From Verrucomicrobiota bacterium (GTDB taxonomy: Bacteria > Verrucomicrobiota > Verrucomicrobiia > Limisphaerales > J093): DNA of 62,290 nt. Both the position numbers and the translations under genes were made by a program. Location of the stretch: NCBI GenBank assembly GCA_012517065.1, contig JAAYVR010000264.1, forward strand, positions 1 through 62,290. Reading direction: 5' to 3'. Shown piece by piece: positions 11,332 to 29,211 of the stretch; the stretch's first letter is position 1; each line of letters starts with the position of its first letter. The notes beneath the pieces are model-generated. The model was given only the letters and a program-made list of their open reading frames with translations. It searched no databases and was not told the origin of the DNA.

Positions 11332-13095
11332 ATGCGCTTCTGCGCCTCTTTGTACAGACACACCCGTAGAAGGACACGCGCCGTTCCGGTGGGCGACCCC
11401 CACCGCGGAGGTGTCATAATCGGCGGCGATCACCCGATCGTGAAGCAATCGATGATCACCGCCGACACAGCCGACACCGCAGCGTGCGCCAAACAAACCC
11501 TCGAACTCGCCGCAGTCGGATGCGAGCTCGTGCGCATTACGGTTCCCACAGTGGGTGACGCAGCCAACCTGCGCGCGATTGCAGAAAGCGTGCGGAAACA
11601 AGGATGCCTTGTCCCGTTGGTCGCTGATGTCCACTTCAAACCCGAAGCAGCTTTCGAGGCAGCGCGCTGGGTCGAAAAAGTCAGGATAAACCCGGGGAAC
11701 TACGCCGATTCAAAGAAGTTCGCTGTCAAATCATACTCCGACGAGCAATACGCAGCCGAGCTGGCGCGAATCGAGCAGAAGTTTGCGCCTCTGGTCGATT
11801 TCTGCCGCCAAAACCACCGCGCAATGCGAATCGGCGTCAACCACGGGTCGCTCAGTGACAGAATCATGAATCGGTACGGCGACACACCAGCGGGCATGGT
11901 CGAAAGCGCGATTGAATTCGCCCAAATAGCGCGTAAACGCGGCTACCACGACATCGTGTTTTCAATGAAGTCCTCGAATCCGAAGGTCACGATTGCGTGC
12001 TGCAGGCTTCTTGTCGCCCGCCTCGAGCAACTGGGCGAGGATTGGGATTACCCTGTACACTTGGGCGTGACCGAGGCCGGCGAAGGTGAAGACGGACGCA
12101 TCAAAAGCGCCATCGGGATCGGATCGTTGCTCTGCGACGGCATTGGCGACACCATCCGTGTTTCGCTCACTGAAGATTCGACGCAGGAGATTCCGGTTTG
12201 CCGGGATTTGCTCGCGCAAATCCCCATGCTGGTGAACACGACCCCTCTCGAGGAGCTGCCGGCCCCTTTCGATCTTTTCTCCTACGAACGCAGGTTGTCA
12301 TCAGAAGTGTCACTTGCACCCGGCGTGGCCTGCGGCAAACAGCAGCCAGTCAGAGTCGTCGTGACCCGAGAGACATGGACAAAGCTCGGGTCCAACCCCG
12401 AACCTTCACCCGGTGTTCGCGCCGAAGCCGTTTATGAGAATCTCAATGTGCGCGAACTGGACCCGCTGCGCGATTTTTCGATTGAGAACGACGCTGAGTT
12501 GGTCACGGTGCGTGACGGTCTTGACATTGCGCCAATAACCGCTTTCAGGCTCTTGGCGGCACGCCTTGCACGCAAAGGCAAACGAAACCCCATCCTCCTC
12601 AAAGACTGCCTCGGCGCTCCAGAACACCCGCTGTCGTCTCAAACAGCTTTGCTTCGGTCGTCTGTTGTGCTCGGGAGCCTTCTGGCCGATGGCATCGGCG
12701 ACGCGATCCTCGTCCGCTGCGAAACCGACCCGGAGAGGTCGCTTCGTCTCGCCTACAACATTTTGCAGGCTGCGGGTTGCCGTTTCACCAAGGCGGATTA
12801 CGTGGCCTGCCCGTCGTGCGGCAGAACCCTGTTTGACCTGCAATCTGTCATCGCCAGGATCAAGGCGCGAACTGCTCACCTCAAAGGCGTGCGCATTGCC
12901 GTCATGGGATGCATTGTCAACGGGCCGGGCGAGATGGCAGACGCCGATTTCGGTTACGTCGGAGGCGCGCCGGGCAAGGTCAACCTATACGTGGGAAAGA
13001 AACCGGTAAAATTCAACATCCCCGAAACCGAAGCCGTGGACAGGCTGGTTGACCTGATAAAAGAACACGGTCGTTGGACCGATCCTTCCGAGTGA
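11332..13095 (+). CDS. ispG: 4-hydroxy-3-methylbut-2-enyl diphosphate synthase, long form
   Basis: The penultimate enzyme of the MEP isoprenoid pathway. It converts ME-cPP to HMBPP using a [4Fe-4S] cluster and reduced ferredoxin or flavodoxin. The protein is 587 residues, far longer than the roughly 370-residue proteobacterial form. It matches the three-domain type of plants, Chlamydiae and Bacteroidetes, with an extra middle domain between the TIM barrel and the iron-sulfur domain. The TIM barrel contains QSMITADTADT and LVADVHFKPEAAFEAA. The cluster ligands are C493 and C496 in ACPSCGRT and C527 in MGCIVNGPGEM, followed by the conserved glutamate. The start codon follows rseP by five bases without a clear ribosome-binding site. 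Confidence 0.96.
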   Translation: MRFCASLYRHTRRRTRAVPVGDPHRGGVIIGGDHPIVKQSMITADTADTAACAKQTLELAAVGCELVRITVPTVGDAANLRAIAESVRKQGCLVPLVADVHFKPEAAFEAARWVEKVRINPGNYADSKKFAVKSYSDEQYAAELARIEQKFAPLVDFCRQNHRAMRIGVNHGSLSDRIMNRYGDTPAGMVESAIEFAQIARKRGYHDIVFSMKSSNPKVTIACCRLLVARLEQLGEDWDYPVHLGVTEAGEGEDGRIKSAIGIGSLLCDGIGDTIRVSLTEDSTQEIPVCRDLLAQIPMLVNTTPLEELPAPFDLFSYERRLSSEVSLAPGVACGKQQPVRVVVTRETWTKLGSNPEPSPGVRAEAVYENLNVRELDPLRDFSIENDAELVTVRDGLDIAPITAFRLLAARLARKGKRNPILLKDCLGAPEHPLSSQTALLRSSVVLGSLLADGIGDAILVRCETDPERSLRLAYNILQAAGCRFTKADYVACPSCGRTLFDLQSVIARIKARTAHLKGVRIAVMGCIVNGPGEMADADFGYVGGAPGKVNLYVGKKPVKFNIPETEAVDRLVDLIKEHGRWTDPSE

Positions 13096-23706: not shown

Positions 23707-23802
23707 ACCGGCTTCTCATTTTCGTTGGTGCTGCAGGCTCAGTTCTGGCACAGGACGCGGGTTGACATCGGGTTTTTGGTTGCTAGAAAAGGGCCGAGAG
23801 AG

Positions 23803-23822
23803 TACTATACAAATGTATAGTA
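23803..23822. promoter_or_regulatory. Perfect palindrome, probable LexA operator
   Basis: TACTATACAAATGTATAGTA is an 8-4-8 perfect inverted repeat ending one base before the lexA ATG at 23824. A LexA dimer binding here would block the promoter or the transcription start of lexA and the polymerase gene behind it. The position takes the place of a ribosome-binding site, so the mRNA may be leaderless. Binding is inferred from position and symmetry. Confidence 0.75.
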
Positions 23823-23823
23823 T

Positions 23824-24534
23824 ATGAACCGGCTCACAGACAGACAAAAGCAGGTGTTCGAATTCGTGCGAAACACAATACTCCGCACAGGCGTCGCTCC
23901 TACACTCCGCGAAATCGCAGCTCAATTCCGGTTCCGGAGCGTCAAGGCAGCCGCAGACCACGTCGCTGCGCTCCGGCGCAAGGGGCTTTTGACATGGACG
24001 CCACGCCAGGCACGTGCTTTGCAGTTGATGGCTTATTTGCCAATCCTGGGCGGCTCACAAACAGAAAAAACAGACAATGCTTCAAATGCATTGCCTGCAA
24101 TTCGGCATGCAGTTGCGCAGCTCCCAATTTACGGGTCGATCCCGGCCGGTTTTGCACAGGAACATGCTCAGGAAAACAAGGGACATGTGGCAATCGATCT
24201 TGGCCTCTTGGGCATTCGCCCAACTGCCCGCACGTTTGTCCTCGAAGTGCGGGGCGATTCAATGATCGGACGTCACATCGTCGATGGCGATCTTGTGGTG
24301 CTCGAGCATGGACGCACACCGCGAAATGGCGATGTGGTGGCGGCCCTGATCGACAACGAAAGCACGCTCAAAACTTTCGTCCAAGAACGCGGTCGGCAGC
24401 CATATCTCAAAGCTGAAAACCCAAAGTACCCCAAGCTTTACCCGGCCAATGAACTGGTCATCCAAGGGGTAATGGTAGGGCTGATTCGGCGCATGAAACC
24501 GACGGCGGGCAATCCAGCCCCGCGAGGCACATGA
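23824..24534 (+). CDS. lexA: LexA-family SOS repressor
   Basis: A self-cleaving transcription repressor of the SOS response, 236 residues. It begins MNRLTDRQKQVFEFVRN, the canonical LexA start, which fixes the ATG at 23824 even though no ribosome-binding site precedes it. The winged-helix DNA-binding part contains APTLREIAAQFRF and a recognition-helix region VKAAADHVAALRRKG. The cleavage bond is probably A108-G109 in SIPAGFAQE. The serine-lysine dyad is S146 in RGDSMIG and K183 in STLKTF. The linker (75-100) is longer than in E. coli LexA. It lies 30 bp upstream of the fused polymerase gene with no separate promoter obvious, so LexA would repress both itself and that polymerase. Known relatives include LexA2 of imuB-dnaE2 cassettes. 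Confidence 0.94.
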   Translation: MNRLTDRQKQVFEFVRNTILRTGVAPTLREIAAQFRFRSVKAAADHVAALRRKGLLTWTPRQARALQLMAYLPILGGSQTEKTDNASNALPAIRHAVAQLPIYGSIPAGFAQEHAQENKGHVAIDLGLLGIRPTARTFVLEVRGDSMIGRHIVDGDLVVLEHGRTPRNGDVVAALIDNESTLKTFVQERGRQPYLKAENPKYPKLYPANELVIQGVMVGLIRRMKPTAGNPAPRGT

Positions 24535-24564: not shown

Positions 24565-27500
24565 ATGGATGAAGCATTGACCAAATTCACCCGGCCGGTC
24601 GTGCATCTTGACGCGGATGCATTTTTCGCCGCGGTCGAGCAGGCTGCAGACGCGCGCTTGCGAGGCCGGCCCGTTGTAGTGGGGGGCGAACGACGTGGTG
24701 TGGTGGTCAGCGCTTCCTACGAAGCTCGGCGGTTTGGCATCCACCCGCCAATGCCGACCGCACGCGCACGCAAGCTCTGTCCGAAGTTGATTGTGTTGCC
24801 GGGCGATTTCGAAAAGTACGAGCAGTTCTCACAATGGATGTTCAGTTATGCCTACGATTTCACGCCCGATGTCGAGATTTGCTCTTTGGATGAGGGATAC
24901 GTTGATTTGAGAGGCGTGCGCCGCCCGCCAATCGAGGTTGCCGCAACCATCCGCGATGCCATTCGCAAGGCACTGAAAATCAGCGTCAGCGAAGGCATCG
25001 GCAACAACAAGCTAGTCAGCCAGATTGCTTCCAAGCTCCGCAAACCGGCTGCCTTCGAGTGCGTTTTGCCGGGCCGCGAAACCGAGTTTTTACATCCCCT
25101 GCCCAATCGCTGGCTGCCGGGTGTTGGTCCGCGCACTGCCGAGCGCCTCAACACTGCCGGGCTTGTGCTCATTCGGCATATTGCAGCGGTGCCGACCGCA
25201 TGGCTTGCGCTGCTGGTTGGGCATACGGCGCCACAGTTGAAACAGTTCGCAAATGGCGTGGACGATCGGCCGGTCGTGCCAGCCAGTGTCCCCGCTGAAA
25301 GTTATTCCAAACAACATTCTTTTGACCAAGACCAGACCGACGAGCCATACGTGGCCGCCGTCCTGCGGCAAATGGCTGACACGCTCTTCGCACAAGCGCG
25401 AGCCGATGGCAAAAGCATCCGCACCATGACAGTTCGCGTGCGATACAATGACCGCGCAGAAGACCATGCCACCGAAAGCCTCCCTGAACCAACCGACCTT
25501 GAAACCGACGTGTACAATCGCCTCGACCTGCTCCTTCGCCGCGCATGGCGCAGACGCGTCAGCCTGCGTGCGGTTTCCCTGAAACTTTCCAACCTGTACC
25601 AAAGCTTCCACGTCGGCGTTCTCCAGTTCGACCGCGCCGACCAAAAACGCGGTGCGCAACGCCGATTGGCCGATGTTGTGGATCGTCTGCGGGCGGAACA
25701 CGGACACGCCGTGCTGCTCCGGGGACATGATTTCATTCTCAAAACCGGCGAGCCGAACGCAAATCTGCCGGAGAGCCACGGAAGAAATCCCCGGCGCAAC
25801 GGAACCGAAAAATTGCCGCTGCCGCTGCCTCTGGTGGTGCGCAGCCATTATTCTTTCCTGAACTCGACGCTGTCGCCAGAAGCAATTGTCGCGTGGGCGC
25901 GCAGGCGGGGCTTGTCAGCCGTTGCAATATGTGATTACGGAAACCTCCATGGCGCAGTCGAGTTTTCATTCGCAGCCCGGGCTGCCGGGCTGAAACCGGT
26001 GCTGGGCGTGGAAATGGTTGTGGACGGGCATCCGCTTTGGCTCTATGTCGAGAACGCCTCCGGCTACGCAAATCTGTGCCGCATGATTTCCGCTCATACA
26101 CCGGATGCAAAACCGCAGTGCGCCACACGACAACGCCTCGCCGAATGCGGGACACAGGGTTTAATTGGCGTATCGCGCGACCCGACACTGGCGGCGCTTT
26201 TCCCGGGACGGTTTTATCGTGCGCTGACGTGCGATGCGGATTTTCGCGATTACGCTGCGCACAAGGGCTGCCTGCCTGCAGTGCCGGTTGCGCCCGTGCA
26301 TTATGAGAAACCCGACGACAGGCTGAAATTCAACATACTGCAGAGCATCCGCACCCTCACTTTGCTTCAGCAGCCGCACCCCGAAAAACTGATGTCCGGC
26401 AATCACCATTTCGATTTGCCAGCCGGATTTGCCGAGGCCATCGAGCACCAGCCGGAACTGGTCAAACACACCTGGGAAATTGCAGAGCGATGCAATTTTG
26501 CCCTGGCACCTGGCAAACCGCAGTTCCCGGACTTTACTCCGCCCGATGGTTCGGCACCGGGGGCTTTCCTGCGCACCCTTGTTTTGCAGGGCCTGAAACA
26601 ACGATATGGAGAACGGGGCGCAATGACGCGCGAAGGCAGCATGGTTCCCCCGGCCAAACTCCGCCAACAGGCCGAAGAAGAACTAGCCATGATCCACACC
26701 GTCGGTTACGAGGAATACTTTCTTGTGGTTTGGGACCTTTTGCAGACATGCCGCGCCCGCGGCATCCAGTGGATCACCCGCGGAAGCGCCGCCGATTCGC
26801 TCGTTTGTTATTGTTTGGGCATAAGCAACGTCTGCCCGATCCGATTCGATCTGTATTTCCGCAGATTTCTCAATCCGGACCGCATGGCGCTTAACAAACT
26901 GCCGGACATCGACATCGACTTTCCGCACGACCGAAAGGACGATGTGTTGGACATTTTGTTCGCCAAGTACGGCCGGGAACGGTGCGCAGTGGTGGGCGGG
27001 TTCTCGACGTTCCATGCCCGGAGCGCATTTGCCGAGGTTGCCAAGGTGCTGGGTGTGGCAGAACGCGATGTGCGCCGGTTTACCGAGCGTTTTCCATGGA
27101 GCTTCAGCAGCTTTGGTGATTCACCAACCAATTCCCACATTCAAAATTGGGCCGGGACCATCGAGCATACAACCAGCGTACGCCTGAAAGAATTGTTGCG
27201 AACCAACCCAGAATGCGCGGATTTGCCGATCGACGAGGAACCTTACAGCACCGCGCTTGAAATTGCCGAGTTTTTGGAAGGTATCCCCCGCTACCCCAAA
27301 ATGCATCCCTGCGGCGTTGTGCTCTCCCGCCAGCCCATGCACGAATTAACCCCAACCTTTGTCTCGCAAAAGGGTTATCCCACCACGCACTTCGACATGG
27401 ACGCAGTGGAAGCGATCGGCCTGGTGAAACTGGATATTTTGGCCCAGGGCGGTCTGGCTGTGATGCGCGATGTGACGTCGGCCCTGCAAACACGAGGGGT

Positions 27501-29211
27501 CCAGATAGATATCGAAACGTTCACCGTCACCAACGCTTCTGCAAATGCCACGAACGCAAACCCGGACGCAAACCACACCGCCGCGCCAACTGCATCGGAA
27601 CAGCAGTTCAATGACCCTGCAGTGTGGGACGTGATTTCACGTGGAAACGCGCGCGCTGTCCACCACATCGAATCCCCGGCAATGATATCACTCTGCCGAA
27701 TGTGCAACGTGCGCGACATCGACACTCTGATCGCCGTGGTGAGCGTCATACGGCCGGGCGCAGCAAACGAAGACAAAAAACGCGAGTTCGCGCGCCGTTG
27801 CCAGGGACTGGCCGCGCCGGTCTATGCGCACCCTTCAATCGAACCGTGCCTGCGCAGCACGTTCGGACTCGTCGTGTACGAAGAGCATATTCTGCAAATC
27901 TGTGAAGCGTTCGCGGGCCTGTCCGCCGGGCGAGCTGACGTGCTCCGACGCGCACTGGTCAAAAACAAAATGGACGTCGTGGCGGAATTTGCAGATGAGT
28001 TCGCCGCCAGCGCTCGGCAGTTGGGAAGGACCGAGTCAGAAATACAGCAGGTGTGGGAACTTTTGATCGGATTCCACGGCTACGCGTTTTGCAAAGCACA
28101 CAGCACTGCCTATGGCGTCGAGGCATACCAGAGCGCGTGGCTCAAACGGTATTTCCCCGCAGAATACATGGCGGCCGTGTTGACAAACGGAAAAGGGTTT
28201 TATCAGCCCCTTGTTTACGTGCTGGAATGTTGGAGGCTTGGCATACCGCTCTTGCCGCCGCGCGTGAACGAGCCTGGACCGGCTTTCACAGTGGTCGATA
28301 TCGACCACGGTCTTGTGAAAGAACCGCCCAGGAACGGCGAGTCATCGCCCCGTCATCCAAACCCAACAGCCGGTTCGCCTCAGCCGCGGAAACGCGCAAT
28401 TCGCGTGCCGGTAACCCGCGTTCGTGCATTAACCCAATCAACTCAGGAGCGGCTGCTAGCAGAACGCGCCCACGCACCGTTCCGGTCGATTGCTGATTTC
28501 TACCTTCGCGTCAGACCCGACCCGGCAGAAATGGAAGCGCTGATCCGCGTTGGCGCGTTCGATGGCTTTGGCGTCGGTCGATGTGAACAGTTCTGGGAAT
28601 ATCAACGGCTCAAGGCTCGCTGGGGCGAGGGAAACAGCATCGGCCAGGGCTGGTTGATCCCCCCGGACGGCACCTGCCCAGCCACAGGTAACCCAGCCAA
28701 CAGCCCGGACAATCCCGATGCCGGCCAAAAGGCGTTCCAGGCAAGCGCACCCTTGCACCTGCAAGAGCCCACGCGCATCCAACAGCTCAGATGGGAAGTC
28801 GAGTTGCTCGGGTTCCCTGCAAGCGGCCACCCGCTCGATTTGTACCCGGACGTCGCGTGGAACACATACTGCCCAATATCGCGAACAGGCGAGTTCGTCG
28901 GCCAGGAAGTCACATTGTGCGGATTGGTGATCGAAGACCGGGTCCATCAACAAACAACCGGTGAACCGATGAAGTTCCTCACCCTGGCAGACCGAACTGG
29001 AATCCTCGAAACAGAGCTGTTCGCATCCACGTACAAAACCTATGGATTGGCAACCGTTCGGTACCCCGTGCTTGAAGTAAGCGGGCGCGTCGAAACATTC
29101 GAGAACGGGCGCGGCTTTACCTTGCGCGTCCTGCGCGCAGGTCCACCGCGTCTGCGCAGTAAACGACACACAAAATCCGATGGAACATTTCAACCATCGC
29201 TTCGCTGTTGA
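24565..29211 (+). CDS. Fused Y-family (DinB-like) and C-family (DnaE-like) DNA polymerase
   Basis: One uninterrupted 1548-residue frame joins two polymerases. Residues 1-390 are a Y-family translesion polymerase with the catalytic set kept: D16 in HLDADAFFA, and D109 and E110 in CSLDEGYVDL. Helix-hairpin-helix LPGVGPRTAERL and a little-finger region follow. Residues about 418-1540 are a DnaE-type alpha subunit. The PHP start VVRSHYSFLNSTLSPE has lost most metal ligands (CDYGNLHG replaces TDHGNLYG). The palm motif is PDIDIDF (780-786), preceded by TRGSAADSLVCYCLGI, with KLDILAQGGLAVM downstream. An OB-fold lies near 1440-1535. Low-complexity inserts fall at about 990-1015, 1252-1276 and 1369-1390. 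It follows lexA by 30 bp. Known mutasomes use separate ImuB and DnaE2, so this single chain may be a self-contained SOS mutasome. Confidence 0.93.
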   Translation: MDEALTKFTRPVVHLDADAFFAAVEQAADARLRGRPVVVGGERRGVVVSASYEARRFGIHPPMPTARARKLCPKLIVLPGDFEKYEQFSQWMFSYAYDFTPDVEICSLDEGYVDLRGVRRPPIEVAATIRDAIRKALKISVSEGIGNNKLVSQIASKLRKPAAFECVLPGRETEFLHPLPNRWLPGVGPRTAERLNTAGLVLIRHIAAVPTAWLALLVGHTAPQLKQFANGVDDRPVVPASVPAESYSKQHSFDQDQTDEPYVAAVLRQMADTLFAQARADGKSIRTMTVRVRYNDRAEDHATESLPEPTDLETDVYNRLDLLLRRAWRRRVSLRAVSLKLSNLYQSFHVGVLQFDRADQKRGAQRRLADVVDRLRAEHGHAVLLRGHDFILKTGEPNANLPESHGRNPRRNGTEKLPLPLPLVVRSHYSFLNSTLSPEAIVAWARRRGLSAVAICDYGNLHGAVEFSFAARAAGLKPVLGVEMVVDGHPLWLYVENASGYANLCRMISAHTPDAKPQCATRQRLAECGTQGLIGVSRDPTLAALFPGRFYRALTCDADFRDYAAHKGCLPAVPVAPVHYEKPDDRLKFNILQSIRTLTLLQQPHPEKLMSGNHHFDLPAGFAEAIEHQPELVKHTWEIAERCNFALAPGKPQFPDFTPPDGSAPGAFLRTLVLQGLKQRYGERGAMTREGSMVPPAKLRQQAEEELAMIHTVGYEEYFLVVWDLLQTCRARGIQWITRGSAADSLVCYCLGISNVCPIRFDLYFRRFLNPDRMALNKLPDIDIDFPHDRKDDVLDILFAKYGRERCAVVGGFSTFHARSAFAEVAKVLGVAERDVRRFTERFPWSFSSFGDSPTNSHIQNWAGTIEHTTSVRLKELLRTNPECADLPIDEEPYSTALEIAEFLEGIPRYPKMHPCGVVLSRQPMHELTPTFVSQKGYPTTHFDMDAVEAIGLVKLDILAQGGLAVMRDVTSALQTRGVQIDIETFTVTNASANATNANPDANHTAAPTASEQQFNDPAVWDVISRGNARAVHHIESPAMISLCRMCNVRDIDTLIAVVSVIRPGAANEDKKREFARRCQGLAAPVYAHPSIEPCLRSTFGLVVYEEHILQICEAFAGLSAGRADVLRRALVKNKMDVVAEFADEFAASARQLGRTESEIQQVWELLIGFHGYAFCKAHSTAYGVEAYQSAWLKRYFPAEYMAAVLTNGKGFYQPLVYVLECWRLGIPLLPPRVNEPGPAFTVVDIDHGLVKEPPRNGESSPRHPNPTAGSPQPRKRAIRVPVTRVRALTQSTQERLLAERAHAPFRSIADFYLRVRPDPAEMEALIRVGAFDGFGVGRCEQFWEYQRLKARWGEGNSIGQGWLIPPDGTCPATGNPANSPDNPDAGQKAFQASAPLHLQEPTRIQQLRWEVELLGFPASGHPLDLYPDVAWNTYCPISRTGEFVGQEVTLCGLVIEDRVHQQTTGEPMKFLTLADRTGILETELFASTYKTYGLATVRYPVLEVSGRVETFENGRGFTLRVLRAGPPRLRSKRHTKSDGTFQPSLRC

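Follow-up and report, generated by a model that had tools for sequence, protein, structure and literature searches.

The lexA-polY::dnaE locus

We analyzed a stretch of 62,290 nucleotides from a Verrucomicrobiota genome, here called the window, in which a lexA gene is preceded by a palindrome and followed by a gene for a polymerase fusion protein (Table 1). The ORF at 23824-24534 matched TIGR00498 with 155 bits (cutoff 111). Its product has the winged helix-turn-helix domain PF01726 and the S24 peptidase domain PF00717 and retains both the A108-G109 cleavage site and the S146/K183 catalytic pair, which bears out its identification as lexA in an earlier note on this DNA. The protein aligns without gaps to residues 1-69 of Escherichia coli LexA; therefore, residue numbers are common to both proteins. 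It is the sole LexA detected in this genome, which is 95% complete; a second PF01726 match (L101) was rejected as another LexA, as this 342-aa protein lacks an S24 domain, judged from its sequence. Those relatives that carry names are Verrucomicrobiota MAGs, many of them labelled Limisphaerales, Pedosphaera or subdivision 3.

Table 1. Features at the lexA locus (positions in the window)
Feature	Position	Strand	Basis
Alternative -35 TTGACA; leader would be ~26 nt	23762..23767	+	TTGGCA in sister species
Probable -35 TTGCTA; 17-nt spacer to the first six operator bases	23780..23785	+	TTGCCA/TTGCGG 16-17 nt before TACTAT in the close relatives L005, L007, L021, L022, L027, L030, L151
Putative LexA operator TACTATAC-AAAT-GTATAGTA (9-2-9 palindrome)	23803..23822	.	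Same 20-bp frame and co-varying letters in 111 lexA genes
Probable -10 TACTAT, within the operator	23803..23808	+	Spacing to TTGCTA
Predicted transcription start; leader ~8-9 nt, no Shine-Dalgarno	23814..23817	+	-35/-10 spacing
lexA, 236 aa; domains PF01726 and PF00717, cleavage at A108-G109 predicted, catalytic residues S146 and K183	23824..24534	+	TIGR00498, Pfam, alignment to E. coli LexA (PDB)
Recognition-helix codons, residues 39-46 SVKAAADH; K41 = 23944-23946	23938..23961	+	Gap-free alignment to E. coli LexA; co-variation of residues 40, 41, 42 and 45 with operator letters
polY::dnaE, Y-family polymerase (IMS, IMS_C) fused to DnaE-type polymerase (PHP, pol3_alpha, finger, HHH_6), 1548 aa; second gene of presumed operon	24565..29211	+	Pfam

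The fusion protein contains the catalytic motifs HLDADAFF, SLDEGY and PDIDIDF, and a fused polY::dnaE is present at 75 of 119 lexA loci. Operons of PolY and DnaE2 with lexA are known (PMC6511836). The locus resembles these and the lexA-linked mutagenesis cassette imuA-imuB-dnaE2 in that lexA adjoins genes for Y-family and DnaE-type polymerases; however, both polymerases are here part of a single chain. It also differs from the imuA-imuB-dnaE2 cassette, which is defined by imuA, a catalytically dead ImuB and a separate dnaE2, because the Y-family part retains its catalytic motifs, and the ORF list of the region holds no imuA-like gene beside the fusion gene. The passages of polymerase surveys that were found by keyword do not mention a Y-family-DnaE fusion. 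An operon with a two-polymerase fusion is in itself unusual.

A palindrome at the lexA start codon and its counterparts in the order

The sequence TACTATACAAATGTATAGTA is a perfect 8-4-8, indeed a 9-2-9, palindrome; a single T (23823) separates it from the ATG (23824-23826), and no Shine-Dalgarno-like sequence is found at the usual distance before this ATG. The earlier note was thus right about the palindrome, its distance to the start codon and the lack of a ribosome-binding site. Six perfect 8-N4-8 palindromes occur in the window compared with 1.45 expected from block shuffling, and two of them are of the 9-2-9 type compared with 0.3 expected. Palindromes of the 8-N4-8 type are common by chance, and the symmetry of TACTATACAAATGTATAGTA by itself is, therefore, weak evidence. 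In shuffled sequence, a given 66-nt start region held a perfect 8-4-8 palindrome in 0.06% of cases, TACTATACAAATGTATAGTA is unique in the window at up to three mismatches, and its arms are conserved in relatives. The weight of the evidence lies in position and relatives rather than in symmetry. The five further perfect 8-4-8 palindromes of the window (at 12204, 25973, 35718, 45772 and 52915) are GC-richer.

Within the order, 111 distinct lexA genes have a palindrome with N4 spacing in the same 20-bp frame, at or near the start codon. In this set, at least six of the eight pairs are symmetric and the center is near the start except in two genes; symmetry and a weight matrix of the family served to choose the operators, and this choice favors clean cases. 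The frame is filled with 40 distinct left half-sites, among them TACTATAC (the window), TACTATTC, TACTGTTC, TACTGTAT, TACTGTCC, TACTACTC, TACTAGCC, TACCGTAT and TAGCGTAC. In 54 genes, the A of the ATG is the final base of the 20-mer. A perfectly fixed distance between operator and ATG was rejected, as this distance is 3 nt in the sister species compared with 1 nt in the window; the operator centers span -8 to -25 relative to the start, with two far upstream. At four lexA genes (L008, L024, L025 and L141), no recognizable box was found.

Promoter and leader

Of the 111 genes, 95 have a TTGAC upstream; counted back from the start codon, its first T is found at 35-46 nt in 87 of these 95 (mode 41). 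The commonest spacing between TTGAC and operator is 16, which makes the first six bases of the operator the -10; TTGACA-N16 precedes the operator in 39 genes other than that of the window. In some genes, this spacing is 10-14, and the -10 must there sit deeper in the operator. In the window and its close relatives, TTGC[CTG][AG] lies 16-17 nt before TACTAT; from this spacing, the predicted start is near 23815 and the leader would measure 8-9 nt. The window's -35 TTGCTA is weak. Because a generic sigma-70 promoter scan reported no plus-strand promoter, including TTGCTA/TACTAT, we only infer this leader. The recA gene of this genome has an ordinary Shine-Dalgarno sequence, GAGGAGG.

We consider it probable, from promoter spacing and the lack of a Shine-Dalgarno sequence, that the lexA mRNA is near-leaderless. 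The leaderless mRNA of the earlier note would, thus, hold in this weaker form, with a predicted leader that is short rather than of zero length. The suggestion in that note that the operator overlies the promoter or start site agrees with this arrangement, as the palindrome would cover the likely -10, the transcription start and the start-codon region. Alternatively, the operator could be that of LexA while the leader is ordinary; transcription would then begin ~26 nt before the ATG from TTGACA at 23762-23767 and a weak -10 near TAGAAA, and LexA would block from within the leader. This TTGACA is nearer to the -35 consensus than TTGCTA; however, it is not conserved in the family, reading TTGGCA in the sister species, whereas TTGC[CTG][AG] is conserved at 16-17 nt before TACTAT. 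Moreover, the order-wide -35 is too near the ATG for a leader, and Shine-Dalgarno-like tetramers precede lexA in only 2 of the 111 genes. We therefore regard an ordinary leader as unlikely.

Co-variation of the recognition helix and the operator

The letters of the operator follow the recognition helix of the cognate LexA. In all 109 operators that are symmetric at position 5, K or R at residue 41 goes with A5, and N, T, Y, S, H, G or F with G5 (109/109). At residue 42, A or G goes with T at position 4 (90/90) and T with C (9/9), while S occurs with either. For residues 40 and 45, the groupings were picked after the data were seen: L or V at residue 40 goes mostly with A at position 7, M, S or T with T, and H or K with C; N, K or G at residue 45 goes with G at position 3, with one exception in 110. 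The residue-41 and residue-42 rules had been fixed in writing before 100 further regions were fetched, and in the 54 new genes that these regions yielded, each rule was correct in 108 of 108 half-sites. A weak box among the unfiltered cases (L212, R41) has one half-site with G5, against the residue-41 rule. Outside the order, the boxes of two K41 LexA proteins from other phyla, those of Desulfonema magnum (L080) and a WOR-3 bacterium (L092), likewise have A5.

On a tree built from the LexA C-terminal domain alone, residue 41 changed ~21 times and operator position 5 ~21 times. The well-supported branches allow only five tree comparisons, all of which agree (p = 0.06). When independent evolution was simulated at the fitted rate in 1000 runs, the concordance reached at most 77/109, and in five other co-variation tests, the simulation never reached the observed concordance. 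Could the co-variation reflect shared ancestry, with linked letters drifting together in the absence of direct contact? Residue 48 also tracks position 5 (101/109), as lineage effects would give. However, ancestry alone sits poorly with 21 changes on each side in full agreement and with a simulated maximum of only 77/109, and the co-varying residues 41, 42 and 45 make DNA contacts in E. coli LexA, as do residues 39 and 44 (PMC3091678). We consider this explanation very unlikely.

Judged from these rules, the CTAT in place of CTGT in the window's box goes with lysine 41; N or T at this residue would go with TACTGTAC boxes.

Comparison with known LexA boxes

The SOS box of E. coli is TACTG(TA)5CAGTA, or CTGT-N8-ACAG (PMC9578287, PMC8565304). 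The window's box shares with it the length of 20 bp, the palindromic symmetry with half-sites 8 bp apart and in the same register, the outer letters TACT...AGTA and the location in the lexA promoter, consistent with LexA autoregulation. In contrast to the E. coli box, it reads CTAT on both arms (position 5 G to A), has C instead of T at position 8 and touches the start codon; moreover, it is the only site in its genome, while the E. coli regulon comprises >40 genes. Within the order, TACTGTATGGATATACAGTA of L054 is nearly identical to TACTG(TA)5CAGTA.

For Verrucomicrobia, Erill et al. reportedly described the LexA motif TGTTC-N4-GAACA in 2016. The window's box has the N4 frame in common with this motif but not the letters, as TGTTC is TATAC in the window; the box TACTGTTC-AAAT-GAACAGTA of L040/L041 contains TGTTC-N4-GAACA exactly. 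The earlier note had proposed a new LexA-box type that differs from the GTTC-, CTGT- and GAAC-based boxes. The CTAT letters are indeed new; the box is otherwise a CTGT variant of E. coli length (G to A at position 5, T to C at position 8) in the frame of TGTTC-N4-GAACA. Based on its sequence, the window's box is a new letter variant of a known frame, and its function would be that of an ordinary LexA autoregulation site.

The LexA408 variant of E. coli carries P40A, N41S and A42S and binds CCGT. Similarly, S or T at residue 42 without N41 goes with C4 in this order, i.e. with CCGT or GCGT; unlike LexA408, these variants are natural and arose repeatedly, and the window itself has A42 and T4. 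LexA proteins with T or S at residue 42 and CCGT or GCGT boxes were seen at L012, L018, L029, L061, L146, L149 and L209 (and L014 and L042).

Identity of the operator and proposed mechanism

Because its letters follow the recognition helix and the rules held in all half-sites of the new genes, we conclude that the palindrome is very likely the operator through which the single LexA of this genome regulates its own gene. The sequences themselves show the match to the LexA family, the frame of the operator, its co-variation with the protein and its single copy in the genome, on which this assignment draws; the co-variation also supports that this protein has the LexA family trait of binding its own operator. 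We infer LexA binding, repression, self-cleavage, the transcription start and co-transcription as follows. A LexA dimer would place one recognition helix on each half-site TACTATAC and reach from the -10 element across the transcription start to the edge of the start codon; operator occupancy would block transcription of lexA and of the downstream polY::dnaE, which would encode an error-prone polymerase. When DNA is damaged, RecA filaments would induce LexA to cleave itself at A108-G109, and synthesis of the near-leaderless mRNA would follow.

An RNA hairpin over the start codon that controls translation of lexA, in place of a DNA operator, is highly improbable. The 9-2-9 arms could pair in RNA just before the ATG, and a ribosome-binding site is absent, as such control might suggest; however, G-U (G-T) pairs make up 18% of arm mismatches in relatives compared with 23% expected, i.e. 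there is no excess, the operator letters track the LexA helix residue by residue, and the left arm would lie outside the mRNA given the predicted transcription start. Binding of another regulator, or a chance sequence beside lexA, is the least credible explanation: ~1.5 perfect 8-4-8 palindromes are expected per window, but 111 lexA genes have kept the frame while its letters co-vary, and the concordance with LexA residues exceeds simulation by far.

Putative LexA sites in this and related genomes

The box occurs only once in the 5.26 Mb genome, before lexA and polY::dnaE. The scan upstream of recA, dinB and similar genes that the earlier note suggested thus gave no further target: recA has no N4 box, in contrast to recA of Verrucomicrobium spinosum, which has a LexA box, and the lexA-polY::dnaE operon has the sole copy. 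At up to three mismatches, only two imperfect sites were found besides the operator (C291 and C157); both adjoin response-regulator genes and share a different core, ACCAAGGT, and were rejected as LexA sites. A wider regulon was also rejected, as a search with the 18-mer at up to three mismatches returned 22 sites compared with 56 for the reversed control, i.e. no enrichment, as was a TGTTC-type site, AACTGTTCGCTTGAACAGTT at C274, which lies at a gene end and not in a repair promoter. Similarly, ten searched genomes with an A5-type lexA box held no further convincing copy within two mismatches.

LexA motifs are described as varying very little over broad groups; 17 distinct ones are known, and their changes have been linked to gene duplication (PMC8565304). 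By contrast, a single order here has ~40 left half-sites and ~21 switches at one base pair, and its lexA genes have few or no other visible targets. This fast co-variation of LexA and operator inside one order is the most surprising point of our analysis. We consider it likely, from sequence comparison, that LexA in this order has few sites (here one) and that helix and operator changed together dozens of times in a fixed 20-bp frame, giving a natural recognition code in which positions 5, 4, 7 and 3 are read by residues 41, 42, 40 and 45, respectively, including natural counterparts of LexA408 and with K41/A5 in at least two other phyla. We hypothesize that a tiny regulon frees LexA and its box to drift, which fits with, yet differs from, the duplication model (PMC8565304). 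The code allows LexA boxes to be predicted from protein sequence, and the joint change of repressor and operator becomes directly testable.

In G100, polY-dnaE lies apart from lexA and has a box of its own, TACTGTTC-AAGC-GAACAGTA, with the same promoter geometry. Same-genome sites in G031 (three), G061, G091, G143 and others were mostly intragenic or unclear and were excluded as support. A prophage-like region of G031 (L269:1996) carries TACTGTTCGTTTGAACGGTA, matching the mixed CCGT/CTGT type of that genome's lexA box. The near-palindrome ACTATACCAAGGTCTAGT is repeated in L108, L109 and L127 (G000 and G004), in G000 beside response-regulator genes, and is probably the site of another regulator. 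Finally, G141, which has R41 and no box at lexA, has a perfect TACTATTC-ATAT-GAATAGTA ahead of a radical-SAM gene (L268:1336-1355); this box contains an in-frame ATG, and the radical-SAM protein resembles spore photoproduct lyase.
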